A stretch of 64,000 bases of DNA from Rhodococcus spongiicola (GTDB lineage: Bacteria > Actinomycetota > Actinomycetes > Mycobacteriales > Mycobacteriaceae), in assembly GCF_004011835.1 (NCBI RefSeq), contig NZ_RKLN01000001.1, positions 496,001-560,000 of the forward strand. Reading direction: 5' to 3'. The notes under the pieces were generated by a model, which worked only from the letters and a program-made list of their open reading frames with translations, ran no database searches and was not told where the DNA came from. Below are positions 8,565 through 16,474 of this stretch, in pieces; the stretch's first letter is position 1; each line of letters opens with the position of its first letter. The translations under genes were made by a program, and so were the position numbers.

Positions 8565-8642
8565 TCACTCCGAGCGGCCGCACCTAGTGGCGGCTCCGAC
8601 TGGCCGCTCCGACTGGCTCTGGGCGGCTCTGAGTGATCATTC
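8559..8642. repeat. Paired palindromes and short repeats between metG and next gene
   Basis: GAGTGATCACTC at 8559-8570 is a perfect palindrome containing the metG stop; GAGTGATCATTC recurs at 8631-8642 over the candidate GTG start of the next gene. Between them GCTCCGACTGGC occurs twice (8593-8604, 8606-8617). No terminator is evident. The role is unknown. Confidence 0.6.
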
Positions 8643-9886
8643 ACCGAAAGTTGTCGGTCCACCCGTGCACACTCGCACGCATGGGGAGAAATAGAACATA
8701 CTTTCGAACAGGGGATCGCCTCACCGACGTACCACCACGGCACCGATCGGCGGCCGGACTCATCACCGCGCTCGCCGGCGCATACGAGCGGGGCTGGCAG
8801 CCGGCCGACATCATGCATGTCACCCGTCGCGCGCTGGGAACCAGAACTGCCCCGACTGCTGCCGCCGCGCTGCTGTTCGAGGCACGCGCATCGCAGACAG
8901 AAGCGCTGGCGCCGCAGGACTGGCGTATGCAACTCTCACGGATCGCGGATGCAGAACCCGACGCGGCACGGTTCGCCGAGGGACTGCCGGCGCGCTGTGA
9001 GCCCGACGACTTCGCAACGGCCCTGGACGCGGTCGACTGGCAGATCGGGGTGCGCGAGTGGGTCGACCTGACGGCGCTTTGGCTCGAGTTCCCCCGCCTG
9101 AACCGGCTGTGCGAACCCCCGTCGGCGTGGCCTGACGTGCGAGTCCAACACCACGCACCCGACGCAAAGGCCACCGACCACAGAGCGCTGAGCAGGATCC
9201 GCCGACTGCTGGCCAAGGCCGAGGCCACCGAATTCGTCGAGGAAGCAGAGACACTCACGGCCAAGGCCCAGGACCTCATGACGCGATACGCCATAAGCGC
9301 CGCGCTCCTCGACAGCGTCGACAACAACGGCGTCGACCCGGTATCCCTCGCGGTGCGCAGCCACCGCATCCATCTCGACAACCCGTACGTACGGGAGAAA
9401 GTGCATCTACTGACGGCGATCGGCGAGGCGAACCGGGTACGGACGGTGTGGTTCGACAGGTTCGCGATCGCGACCGTCGTCGGCAGCCCAGTCGACCTCG
9501 AGCAGGTCGACCTGCTGTTCACGTCGCTGCTGGTCCAGGCGACCCGGGCGATGCATGCGGCTGGCGCGGACGAGCGGGGAACGTCCCGGACAGGGGCATT
9601 TCGCAAGGCGTTCCTATTCGGTTTCGCGGTGCGTATCGGTCAGCGACTAAAGGAGACCGACAGTCGCGCCACCGCCGAAGCCGCCGTGGACGCGAATGTG
9701 CGGATCGACGACCTGCTCCCGGTGTTGGCCATGCGCTCCGCGGCCGTCGACGCCGAGTTCGACCGGTTGTTCCCTGCCACCAGAGCGTCCGTAAGTCGAA
9801 GCGTCGACGCCGACGGATGGTTCGCCGGTCAGTCCGCCGCTGATCGCGCCTCGGTGGCAGCAGGCGAACGCCGGATCACCCGATGA
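8633..9886 (+). CDS. DUF2786-domain protein of unknown function
   Basis: A 417-residue cytoplasmic protein. The recognisable part is a DUF2786 segment at about 185-225 (LSRIRRLLAKAEATEFVEEAETLTAKAQDLMTRY split by short gaps), found in many actinobacterial and phage proteins of unknown role. The N-terminal half has a helical ALAGAYERGWQPADIMHVTRR region and the C-terminal half a region (VHLLTAIGEANRVRTVWFD) usual in this family. No signal peptide or membrane helix. Start is uncertain: GTG 8633 overlaps a palindrome, and ATG 8681 (MGRNRTYF) is an alternative; neither has a clear Shine-Dalgarno. Confidence 0.8.
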   Translation: MIIHRKLSVHPCTLARMGRNRTYFRTGDRLTDVPPRHRSAAGLITALAGAYERGWQPADIMHVTRRALGTRTAPTAAAALLFEARASQTEALAPQDWRMQLSRIADAEPDAARFAEGLPARCEPDDFATALDAVDWQIGVREWVDLTALWLEFPRLNRLCEPPSAWPDVRVQHHAPDAKATDHRALSRIRRLLAKAEATEFVEEAETLTAKAQDLMTRYAISAALLDSVDNNGVDPVSLAVRSHRIHLDNPYVREKVHLLTAIGEANRVRTVWFDRFAIATVVGSPVDLEQVDLLFTSLLVQATRAMHAAGADERGTSRTGAFRKAFLFGFAVRIGQRLKETDSRATAEAAVDANVRIDDLLPVLAMRSAAVDAEFDRLFPATRASVSRSVDADGWFAGQSAADRASVAAGERRITR

Positions 9887-9970
9887 CGCACTGCCGCACC
9901 GGGGGTGCGTGCCGGGTCGCCGCCGCGGACCGGTGCGGGCAGAACCGTCGGCCCATGGAAAGCTGGACCA

Positions 9971-11266
9971 ATGCGGATCGAGCGACTCGGAGACGGTGGT
10001 CGGGCCGCCGACGTGCTCCGGGCGCTGGCTCGGCGGGCTCGGTCGCGGCAGCTTCCACCGCCGGCCGGCCTGATCGGGCGATGGTTCGACACTGCGGCCG
10101 TCATCGCGCCCAGTGTCCGGGCGGAACCATGCGACCCCGACACCGCGTTCGCCCTCCCGCCACGCGTCACGCGTGAAGCTTCGTCAGCCGACGGACCACT
10201 CGTCGGCGGCGGATGGATCGGCTACCTCGGCTACCCCGACCGGAGAGGTGCACTGCCGGCCGCGGCCGGCGGCTGGACCGATCACGTCGTGCGCCTGGAC
10301 TCGTCGGGATGTTGGTGGTTCGAGAGCCTTCTGGACGAGCCGTGCCCCGACGACGTTGCTCGGGCGGTGCTCCGCCCGGAGGTTCCCCCTGCACCGTGGC
10401 ACATCGACTGGACCGAACCTGACCGGCATGCGCACCGCCGAGGCGTCGAGGACTGCCTCGACAGTATCGCCCGCGGAGACGTCTACCAGGCGTGCGTGTG
10501 CGCACGGTTCCACGGCTCGAGTTCGGGTCGACCCGTCGACTTCTTTTCCGAAGCGGTCGATCGGACCCGGCCCGCCCGTGCGGCTTTCGTGCAGGGTCGG
10601 TGGGGCGCCGTCGCCTCGCTGTCACCGGAACTCTTCCTCTCGCGGCGCGGCCGGACCGTCACCTCGAGCCCCATCAAGGGCACCCTCCCCCTCGACGCGG
10701 ATCCCGCGCTGCTGCGCAACTCGGTCAAGGATGTCGCCGAGAACGTGATGATCGTCGACCTCGTCCGCAACGATCTCGGAAGGGTCGCCGAACCGGGATC
10801 GGTCCGCGTGACCGATCTCTTGCGGGTCAAACCAGCTCCGGGGGTGTGGCATCTGGTCTCCACCGTGGCAGCGACGGTTCCCGACTCGGTCGACACCGGG
10901 GAGCTACTGAGGGCCACCTTCCCGCCGGCGTCTGTCACCGGGTGCCCCAAACACTCAGCTCGACAACTCCTCTCGGTCTGGGAACCGGACCCGCGCGGCG
11001 TCTATTGCGGCACGGTCGGAATGCACAGCCCCGTCGCGGGCCTCGAACTCAACGTCGCGATCCGCACGGTCGAGTTCGACGTGAACGGCGACGTGGGACT
11101 CGGCGTCGGCGGCGGGATCACGATCGATTCCGATCCCGACGCCGAATGGCAGGAATGCCTCGACAAAGCGAAGAGCATCGTGACACTCACGGCTCCACGC
11201 ACACACCACGCCCCAACTCAGGCATCTCGATGCTCCCGGACTGATCCGGTTCCGGTTCGGACGTAG
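9971..11266 (+). CDS. pabB: Aminodeoxychorismate synthase component I
   Basis: A 431-residue chorismate-binding enzyme of folate synthesis that aminates chorismate to 4-amino-4-deoxychorismate. The PIKGT motif, whose lysine forms the covalent intermediate in PabB (anthranilate synthase has PIAGT), is present, as are ARGDVYQACVCARF, ENVMIVDLVRNDLGR, SVTGCPK and GLGVGGGITIDSDP. Start ATG 9971 (MRIERLGDGG) is chosen over an upstream ATG-less extension rich in low-complexity codons. No pabA is adjacent. The last 80 nt overlap the 3' end of the convergent STAND-WD40 gene. Its C-terminal 25 residues look like a non-conserved tail. Confidence 0.93.
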   Translation: MRIERLGDGGRAADVLRALARRARSRQLPPPAGLIGRWFDTAAVIAPSVRAEPCDPDTAFALPPRVTREASSADGPLVGGGWIGYLGYPDRRGALPAAAGGWTDHVVRLDSSGCWWFESLLDEPCPDDVARAVLRPEVPPAPWHIDWTEPDRHAHRRGVEDCLDSIARGDVYQACVCARFHGSSSGRPVDFFSEAVDRTRPARAAFVQGRWGAVASLSPELFLSRRGRTVTSSPIKGTLPLDADPALLRNSVKDVAENVMIVDLVRNDLGRVAEPGSVRVTDLLRVKPAPGVWHLVSTVAATVPDSVDTGELLRATFPPASVTGCPKHSARQLLSVWEPDPRGVYCGTVGMHSPVAGLELNVAIRTVEFDVNGDVGLGVGGGITIDSDPDAEWQECLDKAKSIVTLTAPRTHHAPTQASRCSRTDPVPVRT

Positions 11267-14200
11267 CAGTGCAGATCCGGGTGGTGACGGAGTCCGCGTC
11301 GAGTCGCCACGTACGCAACACACCGTCACCGCCACCGGCGACCACCAGATCGACCCGCGGCAGGAACGCCACCTGCCAGCGGCCCTTACCGATCGTCGTC
11401 AGCGGTCCGCCGACTGGCTCGCCGTTGTCGTCCGCGATGTCCCACAATCGGACCGAGCCGTCGACAGCACCGCTGACGACAAGCGAACCGTCGCCGTTGA
11501 ACGCGACGCTGTACACGGTGCCGGTGTGACCGCGCAGGGGTTCGGCACGTTGGGTGAACCCGCCGTCCTCACCGCGATCCCACAGCAGCAGCGTGTGATC
11601 GTCACTCGCGGTGACCAGTGTCGAGCCGTCGGGGCTGAATGCCAGCGCGTTCACGCCACCCTCGTGCCCGGCACCCCGCAGCGGACGCGGAGTCGGGGAA
11701 GACAGGTCGGTGACATCCCATACATGGATGTCGTTGTCGTCCGCGCTTGCCGCCACGAGCAGGTCACCGTCTGGGCTGAACTGTGCGGTGCGCACGAGAT
11801 TGCCCGGACCTGTCAGGCTCGACCCGATCTTGACCGGCGCACGGGGATCCTCGATGTTCCACAGTGCGACGCTGAAGTCGTCGTCGCCGATCGCCAGTGT
11901 CCGGCCGTCCGGGCTGAACGCCATCTCGAACGTGAAACGGGTGTCCGTGGCGATGGGCGGCCCGAACCGCACCGGTCGGCCCGGATCGTGCACGTCCCAC
12001 AACTGGACGTGCCCACCCGAGGTCTGTGTGGTGGCGAGGATCCTGCCGTTCGGAGAGAGTACCGCGACGTTCGCGCCGCCAAACGGACGCGGAACCCTTA
12101 TCGTCCCGGTCGGCTCCACCTGGCCCCGCTTGTCGACCGACCACAGTCTCACCGCTGGGTCGTACCCGGCAGTCACGAGCAGCGATCCGTCCCGATTCAT
12201 CGAGGGCAACGTCATGGCCGCACCGGACACTGGGACTGTGCCGGGCGCCAGTGTCCAGATCCGGACCAGCGAATCCTGGCCGCCGGTCACGATCGTGGAC
12301 CCGTCCGGGGAGAACGCGAGCGCGGGCACACCGCCACCGTTTCCGGTGAGGCCCGGCTTCATCTCGCGCAGCGCGCGCGTCGCCCGATCCACCGACCACA
12401 ATTTCGCGGTCCCGTCCCACGATGCACTCGCGAGCGTCGTCCCGTCAGGAGCGAACGCGATGGTCCAGATCCCGCCGGTATGGGCCGAGACAGGTGCACC
12501 GATCAGCCGGACCTTGGCAAGGTCGGTGGTGTCGAAGATGCGGATCAGTCCGTCGTCGCTGCTGGCGGCGAGGCTGCGACCATCGGGACTGAACGCGACC
12601 GAGTGCACGACATCGTCGAAGCCCGACAGCTCACGCCCGATCTGGACCGGGCGCGCGGGATCGGTGATGTCCCACAACCGGATAGTGCGGTCGTCACTCG
12701 AAGTCGCGAGGATCGTCTCACCCCGGAACGAGACCGTCCGCACCGCGCCGGAATGACCCCGCAGCGTCCAGGTGGGCAGCTCGCCGATAGCGGGGGCGGA
12801 AGTATCGAACAGCGTCACGGAGCCGTCATCGTGGGGAACCGCGAGCAATCGACCCTCGGGGCTGAATCGCACGTTGTGGACCGCGCCGGGCGCGGCCCGA
12901 ACCCCGTCGACGAGCGCTCTCGGTTCCGAAGGGCTGGTGATGTCCCAGATCCAGACCTTCCCATCGCCGCTGCCCGCCGCTAGCAGTCGGCCGTCCGGGC
13001 TGAACGACACCGAGGCCATGTACTGATCGGATCCGCCCAGCTCGGGGCCCACCTGGACGGGGTCGGAGGGATCAGCGAAATCCCACAACCGCACCGTCCG
13101 GTCGTCGCTCGCAGTCGCGAGCAGATGCCCGTCCGGCGAGATAGCCACCCCGTAGATGGGCCCGGTGTGGCCGGCCAGGGCGCGTGAGATCGGGGTGTTC
13201 TCGGTGGCCACCAGCCGGGAGAACGCGTCGTTACTTCCGGGGCGCATCTGCCAGGCCTCGAGCGACAACTGCGCGGACGTGGTCGGGTCGCTCTCGCGGA
13301 GGGCGTCTGCCAGAGCCACGACCTGCTGGAACTGCGCTGTACTGCGCTCGTTCTCGGCACGCGACTTGGCCCCGAGCGCCGCGACGCCCATCACGACCGC
13401 GATGATGGTCGAGAACGTGAGAGCCGCCATAACGGTCCGCTCGAGTCTCACTTGCCGACGAACCTGACGCACGGACGCGTCGAGGAAGTCGGAGGCCGCG
13501 GGCGTCAGAGGTGCCGCGACCTCGCGCAGCAGGGTCTCGGGGGGTGCGATGGTGTCGGACCGCCTGGCGGCGTGCTCGGAGAGCAGGTCGAGCCGTCCGC
13601 GGTGGTACAGCAGGCTGTTACTACGCTTGGCGTTCTCCCAGTGGAGAGCATCGGTCTCGACCTGTTGCCGCAGCGCCGAGTACGAGCGGTCTTCCTGTAT
13701 CCAGTTCGCGAGCCTGGGCCAAGTGACGATCACCGCGTCGTGAATCAACTCGACCTTGTCGCCGTCGACAACGAGCACCCTCGCGTTGACGAAGTGATCG
13801 ATCACTCGGCGTGCGACGCCGGCGTCGTCGCCTTCGGAGGCGACGAGCTGTTCGAGCGTACGACGGTTCTTCACGTCGGTGCCGGTGTTCGTGACATACA
13901 CCAGGCGCACCGTGATCGACCTGGCGAGAGCACGTTCCTGGTGACCGAGTTGCTCCCACGCACGTTCGGCGGCCGACGCGATGGAGCCGCGCACGCCACC
14001 GGTTGCGCGGTAATCCGCGATGGTCAGCTGGCCACCGTGCCGCCGTTCCCACATCGTGTCGAGAAGGTGGGAAACCAGGGGCAGTACGGTGCTGCTCCCC
14101 TCGCCGGCGGCGAGCACACCGAGATCGTTGAGGATCAGGTCGACCAGGCCGGCCTCGAGCTTGAGCCCGATCATCTGGGCGGGCTGTGTGATGACCTCGA

Positions 14201-15242
14201 CGACGTCTTCGTGGCGCAGCGGCGAGACCGTCTTGCTGCGCTGTTCCAGTGCGGACGCGAGCACGGGGTAGGAGAGCGCCTGCGCGTAGAAGTCAGACCG
14301 CATTGTCGCGACGACAGACGCCGTCTCGGACGGCTCCTGACCAGGCAGTTCGATCGCAGCGTGGTCGAGCACCGTCAGAAACCGTGCTCGCTCCTCGGCG
14401 TCGTCACACTGGGTGAAGAGTTCCTCGATCTGATCGACGACGAGGAGTAGTTGCTTGGCACCCACCCGCTCCGCGGCGCGGCGCAGAGCTTGGCCGACCT
14501 GCTCGTGGTCGGGCGCCGCGACGCAATCGCCTATTTCAGGAATCGCGGCGACGAGCACGGCGAGCGGGTGCGCCCCGGGCGCGAACACAACGGGCGCGAA
14601 AGGAGTTTCGTGCTCGCTTCCACCGCTGCGACCACGCAGTTCCGGAATCAGGCCCGCCTGTACCAATGACGACTTGCCGACACCCGACGCTCCGGTGACC
14701 ACGACCATGCCTTGGCCGTGAGCCGCCAACACGGTGCTGACCAGTCTGCGGACGCTGGGTCGTCGTCCGAAGAACAACCGCTCGTCCATTTCCCGATAGG
14801 GCGCGAGTCCTCGATAGGGCCGCGCGCCCGCGGGAAGTTCCTGGACGGTCGGTTCGGCACTGTCGCCGACGGAACGCGCGGAGGTGACTGCGTTGGCATT
14901 CCGCCACCACGCCTCCCACTTCCGCAGCGAGAAGAGCCCGTCCGTCGGCGGCGGGCCATCGTGGAGCGAATCGGCGGTCCGGATGAGGACCGTGAGGACC
15001 GGCCGAACCGACTCGAACGTGGCCGGTACCCGCTTGCCGGACCGCCAGTCGCTCAGCCGCTGGACCGACGCAGGCTTGTCTCCTCCCATCGACCGGGTGA
15101 GTGCCGCAGCTTCGGATACGACTTTCTTGAGCGGTGGGCCGCCGGCGGTCGCGAACAACAGCCGTAGTTGGTCGGCGAAGAACAAGCGCGCCGGCGAGAC
15201 GGCCGGGTTCGTGCCGGACTCCAGTTTCTTCTCGGACGCCAT
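11187..15242 (-). CDS. HTH-STAND NTPase-WD40 repeat protein
   Basis: A very large (1351-residue) signalling or conflict-type protein. Residues about 15-95 form an XRE-like domain with LSDWRSGKRVP. RPYRGLAPYREMDERLFFGRR leads into a STAND NTPase (nSTAND1 type) with Walker A GASGVGKSS (184-192), Walker B LLLVVDQIEELF (D270), and the HDAVIVTWPRLANWI winged-helix signature near 501-515. A membrane helix lies at about 603-623. From about 690 to 1330 I count fourteen WD40 repeats (SPDGxxLATxSDDxTVRLWD), enough for two seven-bladed propellers. Start 15242 has GGAGGAG 8 nt upstream. Such proteins are common in actinomycetes, mostly uncharacterised; some STAND relatives act in phage defence. No obvious effector domain or partner gene. 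Confidence 0.92.
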   Translation of the reverse strand: MASEKKLESGTNPAVSPARLFFADQLRLLFATAGGPPLKKVVSEAAALTRSMGGDKPASVQRLSDWRSGKRVPATFESVRPVLTVLIRTADSLHDGPPPTDGLFSLRKWEAWWRNANAVTSARSVGDSAEPTVQELPAGARPYRGLAPYREMDERLFFGRRPSVRRLVSTVLAAHGQGMVVVTGASGVGKSSLVQAGLIPELRGRSGGSEHETPFAPVVFAPGAHPLAVLVAAIPEIGDCVAAPDHEQVGQALRRAAERVGAKQLLLVVDQIEELFTQCDDAEERARFLTVLDHAAIELPGQEPSETASVVATMRSDFYAQALSYPVLASALEQRSKTVSPLRHEDVVEVITQPAQMIGLKLEAGLVDLILNDLGVLAAGEGSSTVLPLVSHLLDTMWERRHGGQLTIADYRATGGVRGSIASAAERAWEQLGHQERALARSITVRLVYVTNTGTDVKNRRTLEQLVASEGDDAGVARRVIDHFVNARVLVVDGDKVELIHDAVIVTWPRLANWIQEDRSYSALRQQVETDALHWENAKRSNSLLYHRGRLDLLSEHAARRSDTIAPPETLLREVAAPLTPAASDFLDASVRQVRRQVRLERTVMAALTFSTIIAVVMGVAALGAKSRAENERSTAQFQQVVALADALRESDPTTSAQLSLEAWQMRPGSNDAFSRLVATENTPISRALAGHTGPIYGVAISPDGHLLATASDDRTVRLWDFADPSDPVQVGPELGGSDQYMASVSFSPDGRLLAAGSGDGKVWIWDITSPSEPRALVDGVRAAPGAVHNVRFSPEGRLLAVPHDDGSVTLFDTSAPAIGELPTWTLRGHSGAVRTVSFRGETILATSSDDRTIRLWDITDPARPVQIGRELSGFDDVVHSVAFSPDGRSLAASSDDGLIRIFDTTDLAKVRLIGAPVSAHTGGIWTIAFAPDGTTLASASWDGTAKLWSVDRATRALREMKPGLTGNGGGVPALAFSPDGSTIVTGGQDSLVRIWTLAPGTVPVSGAAMTLPSMNRDGSLLVTAGYDPAVRLWSVDKRGQVEPTGTIRVPRPFGGANVAVLSPNGRILATTQTSGGHVQLWDVHDPGRPVRFGPPIATDTRFTFEMAFSPDGRTLAIGDDDFSVALWNIEDPRAPVKIGSSLTGPGNLVRTAQFSPDGDLLVAASADDNDIHVWDVTDLSSPTPRPLRGAGHEGGVNALAFSPDGSTLVTASDDHTLLLWDRGEDGGFTQRAEPLRGHTGTVYSVAFNGDGSLVVSGAVDGSVRLWDIADDNGEPVGGPLTTIGKGRWQVAFLPRVDLVVAGGGDGVLRTWRLDADSVTTRICTATSEPEPDQSGSIEMPELGRGVCVEP

Positions 15243-15545
15243 CGCCCGTACTCCTCCTCGATCCTCGCTCCCCCGTTCCGCGCCCAGTTCCGCGGCCAAT
15301 TTCGTGCTCCCCGAGGGCGCGGATATCCGCTCTAGTTCCGCTGCGGAAAAATTCCTCGCCGCACGCGAGCAGCGATGATAGCGCCCCGTGCGGACCCTTC
15401 GGTTTCGGGGCCATGGGCGAACGAGGCAAAGTCGACGTCGAGGCACAACGGCCCCGAGCCGGAGCGTGTTGCCTGTCGGGGCTGAAGAAAACGAGGGGTA
15501 GCCCCAGCGGGAACACGTGGCGATCGTGGGGCTGACGTTGCTATT
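15243..15545. other. Non-coding leader region of the STAND-WD40 gene
   Basis: About 300 bp with no supported gene. A minus-strand TATCAT at 15380-15375 is a possible -10 for the STAND-WD40 gene, but no convincing -35 is present 17 bp further up. Confidence 0.4.
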
Positions 15546-15620: not shown

Positions 15621-15664
15621 CTCAGTCCCGGCGCGCAGCAAGCTCAGTCCCGGCGCGCAGCAAG
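15621..15664. repeat. 22-bp tandem duplication over the rsmI stop codon
   Basis: CTCAGTCCCGGCGCGCAGCAAG occurs twice head-to-tail (15621-15642, 15643-15664). The inner copy encodes the last residues LAARRD and the stop of rsmI; the outer copy is a duplicated end. A 22-bp step is not a multiple of three, but the stop codon stays first in frame. Confidence 0.85.
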
Positions 15665-16474
15665 CACCGTCTGGTAGAGCTCTCTCTTGGAGACGCCATT
15701 GGTTGCTACCTGTGCACACGCATCCTTGAGTCGGACCCCGTCGGCAACGAGACCTTCTACCTCCGCAATCAGATCCTCGGGAGCCACCGCGGCCGGGCGC
15801 GCGCCCTCGAGGACCACCGTGATCTCGCCGCGGGCACCTTCGACCGCCCAGTCCGCCAACTCGGCAAGGGATCCGCGGCGGACCTCTTCGTAGGTCTTCG
15901 TCAGCTCCCGACAGACGGCCGCACGACGCTCCCCGCCGAGGACGTCCACTGCGTCGGCGAGGCAGCTGGCCAACCGGTGCGGCGCCTCGAAGAACACGCA
16001 TGCTCGCGACTCGGTCCGCAACGTCTCCAGCCACGCGCGACGCTGCCCCTTCTTGCGCGGAGGGAACCCGTCGAAACAGAATCGCTCGACCGGGAGCCCC
16101 GACAGCGCCAGCGCCGTCGTGACCGCGGACGGTCCCGGTAAGCACGTCACCGAAAGGTCGCGCCCGACACACGCCGCAACGAGTCGGTAGCCGGGATCAC
16201 TCACCGACGGCATCCCCGCGTCGGTGACGAGCAAGACAGTGCGCCCCTGTTCGATGTCCGCGACGAGCGCAGGCAACCGGGTGACCTCGACTTGGTCGTA
16301 GAAGCTCACGACTCGACCGGTAACAGTGACCCCCAGGGCTGCCGCGAGGGCCTTGGTCCGCCGGGTGTCCTCCGCCGCGACGACGTCGGCGGATCCGAGC
16401 GCGGCGCGCAACCGATCGGAGGCGTCACCGATGTCGCCCATCGGCGTCGCGGCGAGGATGAGACGACCAGCCAT
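15644..16474 (-). CDS. rsmI: 16S rRNA (cytidine-2'-O)-methyltransferase RsmI
   Basis: A 276-residue tetrapyrrole-methylase-fold enzyme that 2'-O-methylates C1402 of 16S rRNA. Motifs: LILAATPMGDIGDAS (N-terminus), AAEDTRRT, LLVTDAGMPSVSDPGYRLV, LPGPSAVTTALALSGLP, FDGFPPRKKGQRR, and YEEVRRGSLAEL. Full length. It is divergent from the mannosyltransferase gene with 23 bp between start codons. A minus-strand TAGGCT lies 7 nt before the ATG, consistent with leaderless expression. Confidence 0.96.
   Translation of the reverse strand: MAGRLILAATPMGDIGDASDRLRAALGSADVVAAEDTRRTKALAAALGVTVTGRVVSFYDQVEVTRLPALVADIEQGRTVLLVTDAGMPSVSDPGYRLVAACVGRDLSVTCLPGPSAVTTALALSGLPVERFCFDGFPPRKKGQRRAWLETLRTESRACVFFEAPHRLASCLADAVDVLGGERRAAVCRELTKTYEEVRRGSLAELADWAVEGARGEITVVLEGARPAAVAPEDLIAEVEGLVADGVRLKDACAQVATNGVSKRELYQTVLAARRD

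Follow-up and report, generated by a model that had tools for sequence, protein, structure and literature searches.

The window analyzed here, a stretch of 64,000 nucleotides of the Rhodococcus spongiicola genome (contig NZ_RKLN01000001.1, positions 496,001 to 560,000), encodes a large protein in which a helix-turn-helix (HTH) region, a nucleoside triphosphatase (NTPase) of the STAND type (signal transduction ATPases with numerous domains), one hydrophobic helix and a long array of WD40 repeats follow one another in a single chain. The reading towards which the evidence tips the balance slightly is that this protein is an envelope-sensing, autoregulated, membrane-spanning STAND transcription regulator that works like MalT and AfsR. 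An earlier note on this DNA had put it forward as a candidate sensor whose signal path is out of the ordinary, and this idea holds, with added support from a propeller that is likely external and from a palindrome found upstream of the gene throughout the family.

In the proposed mechanism, two WD40 propellers would lie outside the cytoplasmic membrane, where a C1324-C1348 disulfide would close them, and the binding or loss of a ligand would be relayed through the single helix to the cytosolic nSTAND1 NTPase. The NTPase would then change its nucleotide state and oligomerize, which would alter DNA binding by the N-terminal XRE-like HTH. This HTH is predicted to bind TCCGS-N-SCGGA palindromes, including the copy upstream of its own gene, and the STAND gene is therefore proposed to be autoregulated; the oligomerization of the NTPase and the sign of regulation are parts that we infer. 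A tentative extension is that such proteins may form a class of STAND proteins with an outside sensor, in which WD40 receptor, helix, NTPase switch and XRE head are joined in one chain, with scattered paralogues in Mycobacteriaceae and core-gene status in Prescottella and some of Rhodococcus, and in which each protein would control its own gene through an operator composed of CAGNTC, about 19 bp and TCCGS-N-SCGGA.

Domain organization of the STAND-WD40 protein

The ATG of the gene (Table 1) is preceded by a purine-rich stretch that resembles, by eye, a ribosome-binding site. The match to PF20703 was full-length, scoring 365 bits against a curated cut-off of 27.1, and with this cut-off passed and both Walker motifs intact the protein is assigned by sequence to the nSTAND1 group. 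One other nSTAND1 match was present in the window's own genome, at 27.7 bits just above the cut-off. The WD40 repeats begin near residue 685, are spaced about 46 residues apart and fill the C-terminal half of the protein, and the fourteen of them probably fold as two seven-bladed propellers. Among the 60 PDB chains listed of 267, every best alignment runs through the WD40 region.

The coordinates and length of 1351 residues given in the earlier note were correct, as were the placement between pabB and rsmI, the STAND NTPase with intact Walker motifs, the one strongly hydrophobic membrane helix and the count of fourteen repeats; the gene lies on the minus strand. Its remark that an evident effector is lacking was also borne out: the best 25 of 59 Pfam matches and the N-terminal scan contain no effector family, and neither does the PADLOC result, where the only match of the protein with E < 0.001 falls on the WD40 repeats.

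Table 1. Positions of the STAND gene, its domains, its upstream element and its flanking genes in the window.
Feature	Position	Strand	Remark
HTH-nSTAND1-TM-WD40 gene (TM, transmembrane helix)	11187..15242	minus	1351 aa, ATG at 15242, stop at 11187-11189
XRE-like HTH domain, residues ~18-120, recognition-helix region SVQRLSDWRSGKRVPA	14883..15191	minus	Profile relation to relatives
nSTAND1 NTPase, residues 142-542	13617..14819	minus	PF20703, E 8.3e-109
Walker A GASGVGKS, residues 184-191	14670..14693	minus	Motif intact
Walker B LLLVVDQIE, residues 265-273	14424..14450	minus	Motif intact
Single hydrophobic helix, residues ~604-624	13371..13433	minus	N-terminal flank slightly more positive
Fourteen WD40 repeats, residues ~685-1329	11256..13190	minus	Cysteine-free before the tail
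C-terminal tail with conserved cysteine pair C1324 and C1348	11199..11273	minus	
44-bp upstream element	15337..15380	minus	94 bp before the start codon; TATCAT, CTGCTC box, palindrome TCCGCAGCGGA (15337-15347)
pabB-like chorismate-binding enzyme	9905..11266	plus	Convergent neighbor of the STAND gene
rsmI	15644..16474	minus	Upstream neighbor on the same strand as the STAND gene

Helix charge and cysteine content suggest an external WD40 sensor

The topology was assessed by a recount of 57 related proteins after removal of duplicates, 56 of which carry a hydrophobic helix between the NTPase and the propeller. Close kinship among many of these proteins means that the cysteine and charge counts are not independent. 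The N-terminal flank of the helix was the more positive one in 47 of the 56, matched the other flank in 6 and was the less positive in 3, with a mean net charge of +3.7 as against +0.2 for the other flank. Cysteines were depleted about 15-fold in the propeller part (0.04 per 100 residues) relative to the NTPase part (0.67): 45 of the 56 propellers have none, 7 have one, 3 have two and one has four. Exactly two cysteines were present within the last 40 residues in 54 of the 56 proteins, with one in L025 and none in L021 (L and G numbers denote loci and genomes, respectively). A first count of 52 proteins, in which a WD-motif filter had removed L200, L201 and L210, gave 0.70 against 0.05, with the tail pair in 51; L213 and the loci that were cut short stood outside both counts.

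L059, the sole protein of the 57 that lacks the helix (hydropathy 1.05), has eight propeller cysteines. Wider WD40 relatives served as a control. The nine without a hydrophobic helix contained 1.15 cysteines per 100 residues in the propeller versus 1.34 before it, and the 23 with a helix contained 0.41 versus 0.81, with at most one propeller cysteine in 15 of the 23; four others were intermediate. The positive-inside bias and the tail cysteine pair, the two features looked for in an external sensor, are found family-wide, and the cysteine pattern and the charge bias together suggest that the WD40 sensor lies outside the cell, with the tail cysteines probably joined in a disulfide.

The N-terminal region is related to XRE-like HTH domains

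HTH_31 was matched at the equivalent N-terminal position by all nine distant relatives tested, a subset of ten non-orthologous relatives from which L097 was excluded because its N-terminus differs. The hhalign comparison of a profile of 17 orthologous N-termini with these nine relatives gave a probability of 78 (P value, 1.8e-5) over residues 15-74. It is in this form, through profile alignment to HTH_31-bearing relatives and with no direct Pfam match, that the XRE-like domain of the earlier note stands. The recognition-helix region is almost unchanged across orthologues, and its QRISDW sequence is conserved in most members of both STAND subfamilies, those of the orthologous loci and of the paralogues described below.

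A conserved element upstream of the STAND gene at orthologous loci

The 44-bp upstream element was kept gap-free at all 25 orthologous loci, where the surrounding sequence was not kept, and all 25 carry the palindrome TCCGC-N-GCGGA upstream. The element ends 28-145 bp before the start codon across loci, stays with the STAND gene where transporter-like genes intervene before rsmI, and is retained even at L047 and L050, where the reading frame is broken. The copy in the window has two mismatches to the family pattern and carries CTGCTC where most relatives have CAGNTC. With up to three mismatches allowed, 15 of 61 genomes (the 14 of the genus and G033) had a single copy of the element, always just upstream of the STAND gene; it was absent from the other 46, and a reversed-pattern control was never found. 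The pattern was built from the same loci, and the absence elsewhere is therefore the informative part. A looser palindrome search (N5, 3 mismatches) matched 60 of the 61 genomes and was set aside as uninformative. An RNA element was also considered and rejected, with no Rfam match and a weak consensus fold (-6.5).

A related palindrome recurs at paralogues in other loci

The case for a putative operator rests on recurrence across loci, and paralogues were collected with the N-terminal 546 residues of the G064 paralogue as the query. Relatives at E 1e-70 or better were found in 28 of 251 family genomes, and the resulting 30 loci were reduced to 26 paralogues by removing two pabB-rsmI orthologues (G090 and G246) and two that matched only past the HTH. 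The 300 bp upstream were then scanned for every one of the 1024 five-base half-sites, paired across a one-base spacer. This unbiased scan, which replaced a first strict palindrome expression that had matched 5 of the 30, found TCCGG (TCCGG-N-CCGGA) at 9 of the 26 paralogues, with no other half-site at more than one locus. Extension to 450 bp gave TCCGG at 10 paralogues versus at most two for the others, and TCCGG was still the first half-site over spacers of 0-10. The same scan of the orthologues returned TCCGC at 25 of 25, these loci being related by descent; TCCGC and TCCGG differ by one base. An operator-like site thus recurs at the STAND gene in both sets.

The position of the palindrome was examined in 20 loci, 18 from paralogues and 2 from orthologues, each about 12 kb long (240 kb in total). 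All 15 TCCGG-N-CCGGA sites found there lie near the STAND gene: nine within 170 bp upstream, three (L200, L201 and L210) about 960 bp upstream past one preceding gene, and three about 210-370 bp beyond the STAND stop. At the highest genome-wide site density of eight genomes, about 0.08 loci would be expected as against the 9 observed. Of the 34 orientations of 17 paralogue palindromes, 9 have a CAGNTC that starts 24-26 bp ahead of the palindrome, which is the layout of the orthologues, and the CAGNTC-palindrome composite was absent from 875 kb around other WD40 relatives, where the palindrome alone was found twice.

Other genes lie beside some of these sites. At L203 (2005-3264 and 3932), the operator-like site falls between the STAND paralogue and a same-strand gene for a Tle1-like phospholipase, a possible target. 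The composite of L210 is directed at a divergent phosphoesterase gene. An MspA-porin gene precedes the STAND paralogue at L200 (8170-10788) and L201, recognized by Pfam in L200 and as a homologue in L201, and the palindrome is upstream of this porin gene; at L200 it falls where a divergent PspC-histidine kinase gene begins. The sites by the phospholipase, phosphoesterase and PspC-histidine kinase genes could be targets of the STAND protein or signs of another regulator.

Ownership of the palindrome and weighing of the evidence

Several observations weigh against an autoregulated protein with an external sensor. For the operator, a perfect site within 450 bp is missing from 16 of the 26 paralogues, 4 of the 18 paralogue loci have none anywhere in 12 kb, and the dyad symmetry of single orthologue elements was not above that of shuffles (P value, 0.17-0.29). 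The palindrome TCCGGNCCGGA is also common, with 18-47 copies per genome in eight genomes and, in the window's own genome, 20 copies versus 3 for the reversed pattern. For the HTH, direct recognition by Pfam is lacking, residues 1-139 matching 0 families up to E 10. For the topology, the charge bias of the window protein itself is slight (+2 versus +1); two or four cysteines are present in the propellers of L200, L201, L210 and L211; L021 (G021), a relative of HTH-nSTAND1-WD40 organization, is cysteine-free in both propeller and tail; and among the wider WD40 proteins, 8 of the 23 with a helix have at least two propeller cysteines and L063, which has no helix, has zero.

The excess of the palindrome over its reversed control in the window's own genome means that another regulator may own or use it. 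The protein would then be a membrane-spanning STAND receptor whose HTH is a non-DNA-binding protein adaptor, and the palindrome would belong to another, perhaps envelope-stress, regulator of the STAND gene and other genes. The abundance of the palindrome in all eight genomes tested fits this explanation, one of the eight being the window's own, in which no TCCGG-type paralogue turned up at the chosen threshold, and so do the sites by the phospholipase, phosphoesterase and PspC-histidine kinase genes. It is nevertheless considered unlikely, given that the site recurs at STAND genes in unrelated loci and that most members of both subfamilies have the QRISDW recognition-helix region in common. 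Self-regulation by the STAND protein remains the favored explanation of the upstream site.

Vertical descent of the STAND gene at a fixed locus

The earlier note had placed the gene against a mycobacterial gene order, which was the wrong frame: the closest named relative is Rhodococcus xishaensis (86%), followed by Prescottella and R. hoagii, whose best segments reach 70-79%, and the genome thus resembles Prescottella, the genus of R. equi, more than Mycobacterium. The STAND gene was present in all 14 genomes of the genus, the window's own counted, and in a single open frame in 12 of them. It was also present at named Rhodococcus ruber-group loci and in all six genomes of g21, another genus of the family, in which its neighbors were checked in G033 only. 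Both pabB and rsmI flank the orthologous loci (L005-L017, L035-L051 and L053), with the pabB flank alone visible at the truncated loci L018 and L019; neither gene adjoined the non-orthologous loci listed in the same comparison. The convergent pabB and STAND genes share 80 bp (window 11187-11266), an overlap also seen at L035 and similar loci. At seven of the eight R. ruber-group loci examined (L039-L044 and L046, with L050 as the exception), rsmI and the STAND gene are separated by a gene that looks by eye like a transporter gene.

Empty sites were surveyed in 23 other genomes of the family (G014-G036). The distance between pabB and rsmI was at most 141 bp, or the two overlapped, in 11 of the 23; in two others the gap measured 0.8 and 2.4 kb and contained no STAND gene; the STAND gene was present in one (G033); and a close pabB beside rsmI was not seen in nine, six of these by fetched loci. 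Among the matches listed for G015, G017 and G026, pabB lies away from rsmI. Most simply, the STAND gene would have entered a compact pabB-rsmI site once, long ago. The insertion claimed by the earlier note is thus kept as an old event, with pabB and rsmI adjacent in several relatives that lack the gene, and is given up as a recent one.

The distances among the 25 STAND loci were correlated with the pabB distances (r = 0.95) and the rsmI distances (r = 0.88) over 300 non-independent pairs, in which one piece only was used for the broken copies. Small groups were identical in the STAND, pabB and rsmI trees, and the branching order between groups differed. By these comparisons of sequence, the STAND gene is a long-kept chromosomal gene inherited vertically at one fixed locus. 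The whole-gene omega of 0.13-0.26 in nine orthologous pairs, some of which share a member, indicated purifying selection, which extended to all domains. The HTH had the lowest omega of the five domains in six of the nine pairs. The two propeller halves had values of 0.11-0.31, and a propeller half had the highest omega in four pairs, narrowly except in L039/L040 and L040/L046. Unlike the Rhodococcus group, the distant Lentzea pair L054/L060 had propeller values of 0.72 and 0.42 versus 0.23 for the NTPase, and other members of the family may therefore have diversifying sensors.

The STAND frame was interrupted in R. equi DSM 20307 (L047, near residue 582) and R. coprophilus (L050, near residue 359), and was also broken in P. 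defluvii (L051) and in a draft contig (L053). At L047 and L050 the STAND orthologue is split over two frames, with the flanking pabB and rsmI each matching as one piece. The breaks may be real or may be sequencing errors.

Neighboring genes and defense association

The Pfam-named neighbors of the STAND gene in the window are ordinary genes (among them metG, pabB, rsmI and arginine deiminase), and none of the ten nearest neighbors tested matched PADLOC. No family was common to at least three of the 20 paralogue-set loci; the simple gene-calling procedure passed over the STAND gene in five of them and took the wrong frame in L195, so that a partner could escape this comparison. Ten neighbors from these loci matched PADLOC only in a TRCF-type helicase and a LuxR protein, both read as cross-hits.

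A DUF2786/DUF7168 gene lies between metG and pabB in the window (8633-9886), and a DUF2786 gene stands directly before a STAND paralogue at L213. As a candidate partner this gene was rejected because it stays by pabB or rsmI in genomes without the STAND gene: it adjoins pabB in G025, G032 and G036 and is found beside rsmI in G035 and G027.

The earlier note leaned towards a phage sensor, and in the form weighed here the protein would be a cytosolic NLR-like sensor of the Avs or bNACHT kind, whose propellers recognize a phage protein, whose NTPase oligomerizes to cause growth arrest or death and whose HTH region is an uncharacterized effector. The STAND-repeat architecture suits such a role, as do the raised propeller omega of the single Lentzea pair and the place of nSTAND1 (PF20703) in work on bacterial conflict systems, passages of which name the clade and describe it with effector or adaptor domains (PMC8195603). 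The present protein agrees with the clade, as it appears in those passages, in the full-length NTPase match and both Walker motifs, and differs in having an HTH in the effector or adaptor place and a membrane helix that sets the sensor apart. The N-terminal effector and the patchy, mobile or defense-island location of anti-phage STAND proteins (Avs, bNACHT and CARD-NLR) were not found. The earlier note had itself named strict vertical conservation, together with a housekeeping phenotype and the lack of a defense association, as evidence against its leaning. The conservation was seen in the 14 genomes, the fixed locus and the agreement of the trees; the lack of association holds as far as the ten PADLOC-tested neighbors go. 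With purifying selection on the propellers and a charge and cysteine pattern that fits an external propeller, phage sensing is judged quite improbable, and a phage-defense island was set aside on conservation, neighbors and selection.

Least probable of all is that the gene encodes a decaying sensor, specific to the lineage and dispensable, that has little function today, for although the frame is interrupted at four loci and G035 lacks both pabB and the STAND gene beside rsmI, most genomes of the genus keep an open frame, every domain is under purifying selection and the upstream element persists even at L047 and L050.

Comparison with known systems and implications

Membrane-spanning one-component regulators such as CadC and ToxR place a DNA-binding domain inside the cell and a sensor outside, joined by a single helix, and are not known to have an NTPase switch or a propeller. 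The proposed regulator would share with them the inside DNA-binding domain, the one helix and the outside sensor, and would differ from them in the NTPase and propeller.

MalT and AfsR are presented, in the parts of the sources that bear on them, as STAND proteins with DNA-binding domains (AfsR: PMC10936776; MalT: PMC10427625, PMC6468293 and PMC4381067). Common to these and to the protein of the window are a DNA-binding domain, a STAND NTPase and a repeat sensor, with nucleotide-gated DNA binding proposed. The differences are another type of HTH, a WD40 instead of a tetratricopeptide repeat sensor, and the membrane helix between NTPase and sensor; the likeness would be one of mode of working and not of kinship by descent. 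In the passages concerned, APAF-1 has an NTPase followed by two WD40 propellers (PMC13174449), and this order is shared with it and with NTPase-WD40 proteins of the TEP1/NWD1 type, the WD40 part being matched in sequence. Here, no CARD or TIR-like domain was found, a membrane helix intervenes and the sensor is probably external. Large prokaryotic multi-propeller WD40 proteins were surveyed by Hu et al. 2017 (PMC5587647), and many WD40 repeats with SPDG motifs are the common feature; the mean identity of 0.33 between repeats of the window protein (by the 44-residue method of this analysis) is below the 0.4 line drawn for moderately repetitive proteins in the relevant part of that survey, and the array is thus not a young one. 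Within the open-licence literature, no HTH-nSTAND1-TM-WD40 protein, topology or operator of this kind was seen described, an absence that is weak evidence of novelty.

Most discussion of STAND proteins treats them as switches of immunity or metabolism in the cytosol, and the present case cautions that not every STAND-WD40 gene is a phage-defense gene. If the proposal is true, it describes a one-chain signaling route from the outside of the cell to DNA that uses an apoptosome-type switch. Through the predicted operator and the cysteine pair, the function of an uncharacterized group becomes open to direct testing, and an external propeller together with an NTPase-driven DNA-binding head would unite receptor, switch and transcription factor in one chain.

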